From positions 186,001 through 250,000 of the forward strand of contig NZ_AP022672.1 of NCBI RefSeq assembly GCF_013374095.1: a stretch of 64,000 bases of DNA, given 5' to 3'. The position numbers and the translations under genes were made by a program. The DNA comes from Sphingomonas sp. HMP6 (GTDB lineage: Bacteria; Pseudomonadota; Alphaproteobacteria; Sphingomonadales; Sphingomonadaceae). Position 1 is the first letter of the stretch. Each line of letters starts with the position of its first letter. Positions 4,008-55,345 of this stretch are shown here, piece after piece. A model generated the notes under the pieces. The model was not told where the DNA came from, did not search any database, and worked only from the letters and a program-made list of their open reading frames with translations.

Positions 4008-4080
4008 TGCTGGACGACTTTACCGCGATGCGCGCCGCGCGCGGTTGACCCCTTCGCGGCGCTGCGGCAAAGCCCGCCGC

Positions 4081-4950
4081 GTGACCGACCAACCCCTCAG
4101 CTTCCAGGCGATGATCCTCCGGCTCCACAGCTATTGGAGCGATCATGGCTGCCTGATCCTCCAGCCCTATGACATGGAGATGGGGGCGGGGACGTTTCAC
4201 ACCGCGACGACGCTGCGCGCGCTCGGCCCCAAGCCGTGGAACGCCGCCTTCGTCCAGCCGTGCCGCCGCCCGACCGACGGGCGTTACGGCGAGAATCCCA
4301 ACCGGCTGCAGCATTATTATCAATATCAGGTGATCCTGAAGCCTTCGCCGCCGAACTTGCAGGAATTGTACCTCGGCAGCCTCGCCGCGATCGGCATCGA
4401 TCCGCTGCTTCACGACATCCGCTTCGTCGAGGATGATTGGGAATCGCCGACGCTCGGCGCGTGGGGGCTCGGCTGGGAAGTGTGGTGCGACGGCATGGAG
4501 GTGACGCAGTTCACCTATTTCCAGCAAATGGGCGGTTTCGACATGAAACCCGTCGCGGGGGAACTCACCTACGGCCTCGAACGCCTCGCGCTCTACATCC
4601 AGAACAAGGACAGCGTGTACGATCTCGCGTTCAACGATGCGGGCGTGACGTACGGCGAGGTGTTCCACGAGAATGAGGTCGAGATGTCGACCTGGAATTT
4701 CGAAATCGCCGACACCGACAGCCTGTTCGACCAATTCCGCAAACACGTGGCCGAATGCGAGAATTGCCTGGAGGCCAAGCTGCCGATCCCGGCGTATGAG
4801 CAAGCGATCAAGGCCAGCCACGTCTTCAACCTGCTGCAAGCACGCGGCGTCATCTCGGTCGCCGAACGCCAGGCCTACATGGGCCGCGTCCGCGATCTCG
4901 CGAAGGGCAGTTGCCAGGCCTGGATGGACCGCAACGGGTGGGCGGCATGA
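4081..4950 (+). CDS. glyQ: glycine--tRNA ligase alpha subunit
   Basis: Class II synthetase alpha chain of the bacterial alpha2beta2 GlyRS; binds glycine and ATP and makes glycyl-adenylate. 289 aa from a GTG ([11 protein letters not shown]). Highly conserved blocks are visible: [57 protein letters not shown] and [24 protein letters not shown] at 4045 extends the frame, but the family N-terminus aligns with the GTG at 4081. It is followed by glyS, separated only by a palindromic repeat. Cys residues in the C-terminal ECENCLEAK segment are family-typical. Confidence 0.97.
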
Positions 4951-4966: not shown

Positions 4967-5095
4967 CTCCCTCTCCCCGCTGGCGGGGAGAGGGTCGGGG
5001 AGAGGGGCAGTGCTGGGAACTGCCGTCCGAGTGACTGCCCCTCTCCCGCGCTTCGCTGCGCTCGCTTGCCCTCTCCCCGCAAGCGGGGAGAGGGA
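4967..5095. repeat. dispersed palindromic repeat, family A copy 1
   Basis: About 129 bp of nested inverted repeats fill the glyQ-glyS gap. There is an outer hairpin at each end (CCCTCTCCCCGC/GCGGGGAGAGGG type). An inner pair GGGGAGAGGGGCAGT / ACTGCCCCTCTCCC faces each other across the centre. Two further copies of the same element lie inside glyS. The organisation (two REP-like hairpins in opposite orientation) resembles REPIN-type elements. Confidence 0.85.
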
Positions 5096-5098
5096 AAA

Positions 5099-7438
5099 AT
5101 GATGACCGACTTCCTTCTCGAACTTCGCTCCGAAGAAATCCCCGCGCGGATGCAGGATCGTGCGCGCGAGGATCTCGCCAAGCTGTTCGCCGCCGAGCTC
5201 GCCAAGGCCGGCCTCGCTGCGAGCGACCTCGTCACCTACGCGACCCCGCGCCGTCTCGCGCTGATCGCACGCGGGCTGCCCGCCGAAACCGCCGCCGTGT
5301 CGGAGGAAACCAAGGGCCCCAAGGCGAGCGCGCCGCCGCAAGCGCTCGAAGGCTTCCTGCGCAAGACCGGCCTGACGCGCGATCAATTGGTCGAGCGGGA
5401 CGGCGTGCTCTTCGCGGTGATCGACAAACCCGGCCGCGCCACCGCCGACGTGCTGGCCGAGGCGATCCCCGCGATCATCCGCGCCTTCCCCTGGCCCAAG
5501 GCGATGCGCTGGGGCGCCCAATCCACCACGATGGAATCGCTGCGCTGGGTTCGTCCGTTGCAGGGCATCGTCGCCTTGTTCGGTGACGAGATCGTCCCCT
5601 GCGAGATCGCCGGCATCGTCAGCGGAGCAGCCACCGTCGGCCACCGGTTCCACCATCCCGGCATCATCACGATCGGTAACGCCGACGATTACGTCGAGAA
5701 ACTCCGTGCCTGCCACGTCATCGTCGATCAGGCCGAACGCCGCCAGATCATCGCGCTCGGCGCAACGATGGCCGCGCGCAAGGCCGGGCTCGAACTCGTG
5801 CAGGACGAGGGGTTGCTGACCGAGAATGCCGGCCTCACCGAATTCCCCGTGCCGCTGCTCGGGCGCTTCGATGCGGCGTTCCTCGACGTGCCGCCCGAAG
5901 TCATCCAGCTCACCGCGCGGGTGAACCAGAAGTATTTCGTGTGCCGCGATGCCGCGGGCGCCCTGGCCAACGCCTTCGTCTGCACCGCCAATATCGATGC
6001 GAGCGATGGCGGCGCGAAGATCGTCGAGGGCAACCGCAAGGTCCTCGCCGCGCGGCTTTCGGACGCGAAATTCTTCTACGACACCGATTTGAAGGTGCCG
6101 CTGGAGGAGCAAGCCAAGAAGCTCGACCGGATCGTGTTTCACGAAAAGCTCGGCACGGTGGCGGACAAGGTCGACCGGGTGGCGAAACTCGCGCGGTGGC
6201 TGGTTGAGGAGGGGATTGTCTCTTCTGCTCCCTCTCCCCTCCGGGGAGAGGGCCGGGGAGAGGGGGACGCTTCAACCGGCGTTCCGCTCGATAACCCAGT
6301 ACAGCCCCTCTCCCCGACCCTCTCCCCTGAAGGGGAGAGGGAGAAGTTGGCCAACCAAGCCGAACGCGCAGCCCGCCTGTGCAAGGCCGATCTCGTCACC
6401 GGCATGGTCGGCGAATTCCCCGAGCTGCAGGGCCTGATGGGCGGCTATTACGCCGCCGCGCAAGGCGAAGACCCCCAGGTCGCCGCCGCGATCCGCGATC
6501 ACTACAAGCCGGTCGGGCAGGGCGACGCCGTGCCGACCGATCCGGTAACGGTGGCGGTGAGTTTGGCCGATAAGCTGGATACGCTGATGTGCTTCTTCGC
6601 GATCGGCGAAAAATCGACCGGCTCAAAAGATCCCTTTGCGCTTCGGCGTGCATCGCTCGCCATCATTCGCCTCGTGCTCGACAATCAGTTGCGCTTTAGT
6701 CTCGACGATACGCTCGAGACGATGACAGATGTGATCGCGTCAGGTCAGCGCGACGATGGGCGGCAGGATTTTCGAGCCGAGCTTGATCGGCTGCTGTTGA
6801 ATGAGATCGCGACTGGTGACGCGGGGCTGGTTTGGTTCTTCGCCGACCGCCTCAAAGTCCAGCAACGCGAAGCCGGCGTCCGCCACGACCTGATCGACGC
6901 GGTGTTCGCGCTCGGGGGGGAGGACGATCTCGTCCGCTTGCTCGCCCGCGTGCATGCGTTGCAGGCGTTCATCGGGACCGAGGACGGCACGAACTTGCTC
7001 GCCGGGTATAAGCGCGCGGCGAATATCTTGAAGAAGGAGGGGTTTGGCGCTTCTTCTTCTCCTTCTCCCCTTCGGGGAGAGGGTCGGGGAGAGGGGCAGT
7101 CCCAAACGCCGTCCTCCGTTTCGGCCCCTCTCCCCAGCCCTCTCCCCGGAGGGGAGAGGGAGCAAAAAACGCTGTCCTACACGCCCGAACCAGCAGAAGC
7201 TGCGCTCGCCACCGCGCTCGACTCAGCCGAACCCGCCGCTGCCGCCGCGATCGAAGCCGAGGATTTCGAACGCGCAATGGCGGCACTCGCAAGCTTGCGC
7301 GCGCCGATCGACCAGTTCTTTGAAACCGTGATCGTCAATGACCCCGACGCCGCCAAGCGCGCCGCGCGGCTCGCCTTGCTCGATCGCGTCCGTGCCGCCG
7401 TCCACAGCGTCGCCGATTTCTCGAAGATCGAGGGTTAG
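5099..7438 (+). CDS. glyS: glycine--tRNA ligase beta subunit with two repeat-derived insertions
   Basis: Beta chain of GlyRS, providing tRNA binding. It starts MMTDFLLELRSEEIPARM right after repeat copy 1. Family blocks include FPWPKAMRWG, RWVRPLQGIVALFG, LTENAGLTEFPVPLLG, FHEKLGTVADKVDR, LCKADLVTGMVGEFPELQG and the C-terminal anticodon-binding region ending HSVADFSKIEG. At 779 aa it is longer than typical (about 690-710). The excess matches two in-frame palindromic repeats encoding Pro/Gly/Arg-rich segments at about residues 377-415 (PSPLRGEGRGEG...) and 655-688 (SPLRGEGRGEGQ...). Removing these leaves about 706 aa. The frame is otherwise intact, so the enzyme is presumably functional, as it is essential. 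Confidence 0.95.
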   Translation: MMTDFLLELRSEEIPARMQDRAREDLAKLFAAELAKAGLAASDLVTYATPRRLALIARGLPAETAAVSEETKGPKASAPPQALEGFLRKTGLTRDQLVERDGVLFAVIDKPGRATADVLAEAIPAIIRAFPWPKAMRWGAQSTTMESLRWVRPLQGIVALFGDEIVPCEIAGIVSGAATVGHRFHHPGIITIGNADDYVEKLRACHVIVDQAERRQIIALGATMAARKAGLELVQDEGLLTENAGLTEFPVPLLGRFDAAFLDVPPEVIQLTARVNQKYFVCRDAAGALANAFVCTANIDASDGGAKIVEGNRKVLAARLSDAKFFYDTDLKVPLEEQAKKLDRIVFHEKLGTVADKVDRVAKLARWLVEEGIVSSAPSPLRGEGRGEGDASTGVPLDNPVQPLSPTLSPEGEREKLANQAERAARLCKADLVTGMVGEFPELQGLMGGYYAAAQGEDPQVAAAIRDHYKPVGQGDAVPTDPVTVAVSLADKLDTLMCFFAIGEKSTGSKDPFALRRASLAIIRLVLDNQLRFSLDDTLETMTDVIASGQRDDGRQDFRAELDRLLLNEIATGDAGLVWFFADRLKVQQREAGVRHDLIDAVFALGGEDDLVRLLARVHALQAFIGTEDGTNLLAGYKRAANILKKEGFGASSSPSPLRGEGRGEGQSQTPSSVSAPLPSPLPGGEREQKTLSYTPEPAEAALATALDSAEPAAAAAIEAEDFERAMAALASLRAPIDQFFETVIVNDPDAAKRAARLALLDRVRAAVHSVADFSKIEG
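6228..6343. repeat. family A palindromic repeat, copy 2, inside glyS
   Basis: About 116 bp. The left hairpin is CCTCTCCCCTCCGGGGAGAGG and the right hairpin is CCTCTCCCCTGAAGGGGAGAGG-like, with GGGGAGAGGGGG and CCCCTCTCCCC arms facing across a 45-bp centre. It is read in frame as part of GlyS, in the loop between the FHEKLGT...ARWLVEEGI and ERAARLCKAD blocks. Same family and same translated frame as copy 3. Confidence 0.85.
7060..7162. repeat. family A palindromic repeat, copy 3, inside glyS
   Basis: About 103 bp, with hairpins TCTCCCCTTCGGGGAGA and CTCTCCCCGGAGGGGAGAG and inner arms GGGGAGAGGGGCAG / CCCCTCTCCCC. It falls in glyS between the YKRAANILKKEGF segment and the LSYTPEPAEA segment, near the anticodon-binding domain. 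It adds about 34 residues in frame with no stop codon. Confidence 0.85.
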
Positions 7439-55243: not shown

Positions 55244-55345
55244 CACCGTCACCCCGGCCTTGTGCCGGGGTCCACTGCGCCGCAAATTCTGCGGCCGAAG
55301 GGTACGGACGAGGGTGGACCCCGGCACGAGGCCGGGGTGACGGTT
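55244..55345. repeat. dispersed palindrome, family B, between rplO and secY
   Basis: Two 31-bp arms match at 30 of 31 positions, starting ACCGTCACCCCGGCC on the left (from 55245) and ending GGCCGGGGTGACGGT on the right (to 55344), with a 38-bp centre. It is a sphingomonad-type intergenic repeat inserted inside the spc operon. It may affect transcription between rplO and secY. Confidence 0.85.

Follow-up and report, generated by a model that had tools for sequence, protein, structure and literature searches.

Comparison of sequences across the genus shows that two loops of GlyS, the beta subunit of glycine--tRNA ligase, and the neighboring glyQ-glyS gap are empty in some species and filled by many palindromic families in others. 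The explanation that we consider probable is that these occupants are translated, non-autonomous mobile hairpins, that a DUF559 nuclease would spread DNA carrying its cognate arms, and that the copies now seen in genes are the survivors that landed in frame in permissive loops. The case that led to this reading lies in the window, the 64,000-nt stretch of Sphingomonas sp. HMP6 DNA analyzed here, whose glyS gene contains two such inserts.

In the window, glyS occupies positions 5102 to 7438 on the plus strand (open reading frame list, NCBIfam) and encodes 778 residues when counted from the second of two adjacent ATG codons. NCBIfam names the product glycine--tRNA ligase subunit beta (TIGR00211, 706 bits against a cut-off of 300), and it is the one full-length GlyS match in this genome, next to five weaker matches. 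Two family-A double palindromes, delimited by inverted repeats, folding, and arm comparison, lie on the plus strand within its single open frame: insert 1 at site 1 (6228 to 6343, 116 nt), read as about 39 residues (PSPLRGEGRGEG ... PLSPTLSPEGERE), and insert 2 at site 2 (7060 to 7162, 103 nt), read as about 34 residues. The right arm of insert 1 (6305 to 6343, plus strand) was placed by its match to a DUF559 element elsewhere in the same genome. A third family-A element (4967 to 5095) occupies the gap between glyS and an upstream plus-strand frame (4045 to 4950), which from its sequence and place we take to be glyQ; the frame is listed with a TTG start, and the true start may be downstream. 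This gap copy stops just short of the glyS start codon. The arms of the three elements were recovered by an inverted-repeat search of the window (I1 to I3), and each element folds into a long double hairpin (-44.3 kcal/mol for insert 1, -45.5 for insert 2, and -60.2 for the gap copy, with DNA parameters). The earlier note on this DNA had described two stop-free palindromes in the glyS frame and a third copy in the gap, and both descriptions hold. By their sequence and setting, inserts 1 and 2 would be translated, non-autonomous mobile hairpin elements that are presumably expressed with the enzyme; neither protein splicing nor excision from the RNA is known for them. Against Escherichia coli GlyS (7yse), about 46 residues (371 to 416) stand opposite about 4 aligned residues (chain positions 379 to 382). 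In an AF2 model, insert 1 is a coil linking helices 353-369 and 409-426, with a pLDDT of about 30, and insert 2 is a coil linking 627-645 and 697-718; the model as a whole is of poor confidence (mean pLDDT 62.9), the low values covering all of 495-692 and not site 2 alone, so this coil placement is weak evidence.

All three elements have the family-A core, CCCTCTCCCC-N2-6-GGGGAGAGGG, which has 17 occurrences across the 3.64 Mb of this one-contig genome, whereas a backwards control pattern gave no match; family A is therefore not a product of chance. The core is found in 115 of 151 genus genomes, with up to 80 copies. In this genome, A-like or related in-frame segments are also present in RNase R, MutL, an error-prone DNA polymerase, and HrpB, a list of hosts built from family-A matches only. 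With insert 1 as a protein query against proteins of 428 to 1,361 residues, 52 of 276 candidates matched at an E value of 1 or better. Classified by domains and names, they comprised 23 GlyS proteins (query included), 10 E2 acyltransferases, 4 MurD, 4 HrpB, 4 ValRS (one additionally tagged with the GlyS Pfam), 3 IleRS, 2 MetH, and 2 others. A D-type insert matched 21 of 161 candidates, namely 18 GlyS (query included), 2 IleRS, and 1 protein with UvrA domains. Each query extended by a few residues into the GlyS flanks, which tilts these counts toward GlyS.

The same element thus resides in several unrelated genes, and as an in-frame palindromic insert that is missing from the same gene in relatives. 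In both respects the parallel that the earlier note drew with the Rickettsia palindromic elements (RPEs) is borne out. As described in PMC10969869 and PMC3733652, RPEs (Ogata et al. 2000, 2002) are palindromic repeats of about 100 to 150 bp in several families, inserted in frame in unrelated housekeeping genes. In contrast to RPEs, the GlyS elements concentrate at two fixed sites of one gene, belong to many families, exchange rapidly, and occur in a free-living genus. Moreover, most of their types have arms in common with a nuclease-encoding element, and the available text of those two papers describes no such partner for RPEs.

GlyS was detected in 149 of the 151 genus genomes, and 142 loci were studied. 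Site 1 was readable in 128 of them; the other 14 (L045, L105, L119, L124, L130, L138, L151, L152, L159, L162, and L168-L171) have contig ends, broken frames, or missed anchors. The segment described at site 1 is, as the earlier note expected, missing at the same position in many relatives: 29 of the 128 loci are empty, with a loop of 10 to 13 residues (e.g., GIVKGADPAHA), 7 are short (17 to 18 residues), and 92 are filled (34 to 87 residues). Element types were assigned by regular expressions with manual corrections, G-type inserts in GlyS being counted under A. By this typing, 88 of the 92 fills are palindromic and fall under eight labels (C 23, B 22, A 21, D 14, F 3, E 2, H 2, and I 1). Site 2, readable in 112 of the 142 loci and unread in 30, has at most 21 residues in 54 loci and at least 30 in 58, and 42 of the 112 have palindromic types (D 16, A 10, E 9, B 6, and F 1). 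The case that the earlier note itself named as speaking against its view, relatives with the same segments but no palindromic DNA, occurs in part. Non-palindromic fills do exist (4 of 92 at site 1; 16 of 58 at site 2, of which 15 are of a T type with a common TGEEDPL stretch and 1 is of another kind), but their sequences are different. The TGEEDPL-type insertion, present in these 15 genus genomes, was also seen in several other genera. Among the 107 genomes with both sites read, 37 have palindromic types at both, and the type is identical in 10; in the best-matching relative (GlyS identity 82%), site 1 is filled by type B and site 2 by type A. Predicted hairpin energy at filled site 1 averages -49.7 kcal/mol per 140 nt, against -29.5 in 512 gene controls. 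A value under the controls' 5th percentile was found for 85 of 92 fills at site 1 and for 27 of 58 at site 2, where the hairpin character is less clear. Outside the genus, 29 top-scoring GlyS loci included 27 readable ones (26 from other genera and one from the same genus), all filled, in a sample biased toward full-length matches. The glyQ-glyS gap was measured in 25 of the 142 loci, and in three of the loci (L043, L045, and L059) it contains C arms enclosing a DUF559 open reading frame. The earlier note had missed this scale: many unrelated families occupy the same sites, and DUF559 genes lie between the same arms.

On a GlyS tree of 125 of the 142 genomes, built with the insert stretches removed, the state of site 1 changed at least 60 times (filled versus not filled alone, 23) and that of site 2 at least 34 times, counts that are blind to gain versus loss and that recombination of glyS would inflate. 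Six inserts look nested, and 7 short forms at site 1, such as GVILPARGEDMAALADMA, look like deletion remnants. In GlyS, nature has provided a series of dozens of such exchanges within a single essential enzyme, which makes the old question of selfish palindromes as a source of usable protein segments directly testable. That all 130 palindromic inserts can be read through in the glyS frame follows from how the data were selected; the other two forward frames are open in just 65 and 41 of them, so the frame matters. A preferred frame, as the earlier note anticipated, holds for family A, whose first arm is in codon phase 0 in 25 of 31 GlyS inserts. Type D uses two phases (13 and 4 among the 17 inserts in which the core was found).

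The arms of the inserts lead to DUF559 genes. This genome has 8 DUF559 matches, one of which (genome positions 1976944-1977261) is flanked by family-A places at 1976875-1976920 and 1977263-1977309, both located with insert 1 as the query. The left arm of insert 1 agrees with this element at 44 of 46 bases, and its right arm agrees with the reverse complement of the element's left arm at 41 of 42 bases. In order to survey the genus, we took 77 DUF559 loci (the 8 of this genome, the best of each of 29 other genomes, and a further 40 from down the list of matches) and scored inverted similarity between their flanks; 69 of the 77 (33 of 37 and 36 of 40) exceeded 15, the highest score among 341 random controls. 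Of the 8 that failed, L239, L254, L264, L268, L281, and L290 have no arms, L295 has arms below the threshold, and L286 scored exactly 15 and was counted as a miss though its arms are visible. Flanks mispaired between loci (108 pairs) gave a median of 10, a 90th percentile of 24, and a maximum of 109. This high tail arises from arm families that loci have in common, and the flank test accordingly demonstrates that inverted arms are shared without locating where an element ends. A scan of named records found arms at 15 of 18 testable DUF559 loci, including Sphingomonas psychrolutea, S. glacialis, S. prati, and Sphingobium species; one locus at a contig end was left out, and another (L369) is the same place as a genus-set locus (L280), so the named sample is not fully independent. 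Outside the bacterial family, 14 of 29 DUF559 loci scored above 15; the 112 controls had a 99th percentile of 12.9, and one of them reached 34.

The DUF559 clade agrees with the arm type, requiring 13 changes against a mean of 42.4 and a minimum of 37 in 300 shuffles, on a tree of the 70 typed loci of the 77 that has few columns and many unresolved forks. Arm types A, B, C, and G bound DUF559 elements as well, and no D, E, or H arms were found among the 70 typed loci. The median number of family-A palindromes is 19 in the 53 genomes with a close DUF559-A match, 3 in the 87 with a weaker match, and 0 (maximum 3) in the 11 with none (Spearman 0.67 for copy number versus close match, with relatedness uncorrected and with every DUF559 copy itself contributing palindromes). 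At the orthologous place in 10 relatives, the DUF559 element of this genome is present in 5, rearranged or nested in 3, and absent in 2, one of which has an unrelated hairpin there; the empty places are too diverged to define a target duplication or exact ends, and no transposition was observed. Among solved structures, 3hrl, an "Endonuclease-Like Protein" (E = 1e-16), is a relative of the DUF559 domain, and the conserved positions E, DF, and E.DG..H are read as a putative PD-(D/E)XK site, the superfamily to which PMC12907096 assigns the Caulobacter DUF559 protein VsrA. Most kinds of insert resemble small elements encoding a Vsr-like nuclease, in miniature.

On the reading that we favor, the DUF559 nuclease, or repair of the breaks that it makes, would spread DNA with cognate arms, possibly by cutting at the arms followed by repair through copying, and gene-less copies would be the miniature form of the DUF559 element. 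Survival would be limited to copies that sit in frame and free of stops in surface loops where an essential enzyme tolerates them, others being purged, with the GlyS loops taking 30 to 60 additional residues. Newer elements might insert into or displace older ones, so that a loop would switch family repeatedly, and internal deletion would leave short in-frame remnants. The D class, made of CGTC-type repetitive extragenic palindromes (REPs) and not seen around DUF559, occupies these loops too; this points away from a target preference of any one enzyme and toward sites that tolerate inserts. With classes that differ in their arms found in one and the same pair of loops, such tolerance is the simplest account of the GlyS hotspot, perhaps aided by palindromes attracting palindromes. 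The reverse order of causes, in which a nuclease favors the two glyS sites for their sequence or structure and tolerance is secondary, would suit the very high occupancy of site 1 (92 of 128), the crowding of the adjoining glyQ-glyS gap with elements too, and the six nested-type inserts, where resident palindromes may have attracted more. It is nonetheless unlikely, since A, B, and C share the two loops with D, E, and H, which have different arms and probably different mobilizers; since empty sites contain no palindrome and differ in sequence; and since the same families are in frame within other proteins.

The role of DUF559 itself could also be otherwise. Hairpins might be moved by another enzyme or by gene conversion, the gene merely being caught between two copies as a passenger, and we give this about the same low probability as a targeted hotspot. 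The D, E, and H types are abundant without DUF559, REP dimers are able to enclose DNA by chance, and in PMC12907096 the Caulobacter protein is studied as a mismatch-repair nuclease. Chance enclosure, however, sits poorly with type-matched arms near both gene ends at 69 of 77 loci, with the agreement of DUF559 clade and arm type, and with a family-A copy number that tracks DUF559-A. In addition, a search for the transposase domain of the REP-associated RAYT proteins (Y1_Tnp, PF01797) found nothing in this genome and was positive in just 4 of 61 genus genomes. We therefore keep to mobilization by DUF559, as inferred from these associations; it would supply genomes lacking RAYT with a candidate mobilizer of their palindromic repeats, and would give nucleases hitherto studied as repair enzymes a second role. 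VsrA and 3hrl belong to the same Pfam domain as the genes described here, whereas PMC12907096 treats VsrA as a putative mismatch-repair nuclease and makes no mention of palindromes or inverted repeats.

The elements resemble several known systems without coinciding with any. "REPIN-like," the term of the earlier note, fits the architecture: as in GTAG REPs and REPINs with RAYT, two inverted palindromes surround a variable spacer, a candidate cognate enzyme lies between the arms, and enzyme and arm types agree on the tree. The term fails in that the GTAG tag is absent from the A, B, and C arms when read directly, the genome has no RAYT-type match, and the enzyme is DUF559 instead of an HUH Y1 transposase. 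Type D is like the CGTC REPs of alphaproteobacteria (PMC3733652), a class defined by a CGTC tag, a stem of 8 to 9 bp, a loop of 4 to 5 nt, and inverted pairs: visual inspection of some of the 30 D inserts, L055 and L077 among them, shows CGTC, an 8-bp stem, a 4-nt loop, and inverted pairs. Types A, B, C, and F, by contrast, are not CGTC repeats. According to that paper, no dedicated transposase goes with CGTC repeats, and none was found here either. The elements are also like MITEs in being short and non-coding, with terminal arms common to a gene-bearing element, but their arms are themselves hairpins, there is no DDE transposase, and a target duplication is not established. Somewhat less firmly than the account of the GlyS inserts, but still as the better bet, we propose an undescribed superfamily of bacterial REP-like mobile palindromes, in which a small Vsr-like DUF559 nuclease of the PD-(D/E)XK kind would replace RAYT, each arm family would have its cognate DUF559, and miniatures would spread across sphingomonad genomes and repeatedly rewrite surface loops of essential enzymes, GlyS foremost, as translated protein.

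Parts of this picture have precedents. In 2013, PMC3733652 reported in-frame REPs in sphingomonads, with tRNA synthetase genes as hosts in both S. alaskensis and "E. lithoralis"; it describes REPs within genes as common among repair genes, naming DnaE2 and tRNA synthetases, and finds different REPs at about the same recB site in two Xanthomonas species. The statement of the earlier note that no such element had been described in a sphingomonad aminoacyl-tRNA synthetase is accordingly at least partly wrong. No earlier description of a two-site, many-family GlyS hotspot or of an arm-bounded DUF559 was found in the open-license literature, and both appear to be new, although a search of open-license literature only is weak proof of novelty.

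A benefit to the host could also retain the inserts, if the added residues or the mRNA hairpins aided GlyS or its expression. Their persistence in most of the genus and the refilling of sites after change would agree with such a selected function, but neither the sequence nor the frame nor the length of the inserts is constant, site 1 is empty in 29 of 128 genomes, and the AF2 model shows insert 1 as unstructured, a weak argument; we regard it as improbable, more so than either a targeted hotspot or a passenger gene. An assembly or annotation artefact is hardly conceivable even though several draft contigs stop at site 1 and glyS is broken across frames in 5 of 142 loci, given that the window comes from a one-contig genome, that three other one-contig genomes (G021, G091, and G120) are also filled, and that the frame stays open through differing inserts.

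Draft contigs stop at GlyS site 1 in L119, L151, and L167-L170, so glyS is split in those assemblies; in this group the gene breaks draft assemblies, and alignments at both sites can be distorted. DNA resembling a tRNA 3' end (GGTTCAARTCC) is in frame at site 1 of L036, L048, L051, L115, and L118, followed in four of these five genomes by a D-type element; in the L036 insert, 31 nt are identical to the 3' end of a predicted tRNA-Met from another genome. Palindromic-type peptides near GlyS reference residues 284 to 286 in L163 and L164 mark a possible third insertion site, and residues of about 538 to 570 of the window protein are hypervariable, with insertions of 15 to 64 residues between species that are mostly not hairpin-prone. 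Elsewhere in the window, an inverted hairpin pair of the D (CGTC-like) type lies at 55245 to 55344 (I4), and the sole match of an Rfam scan was a glycine riboswitch aptamer (RF00504, 24370 to 24463, 62.5 bits).
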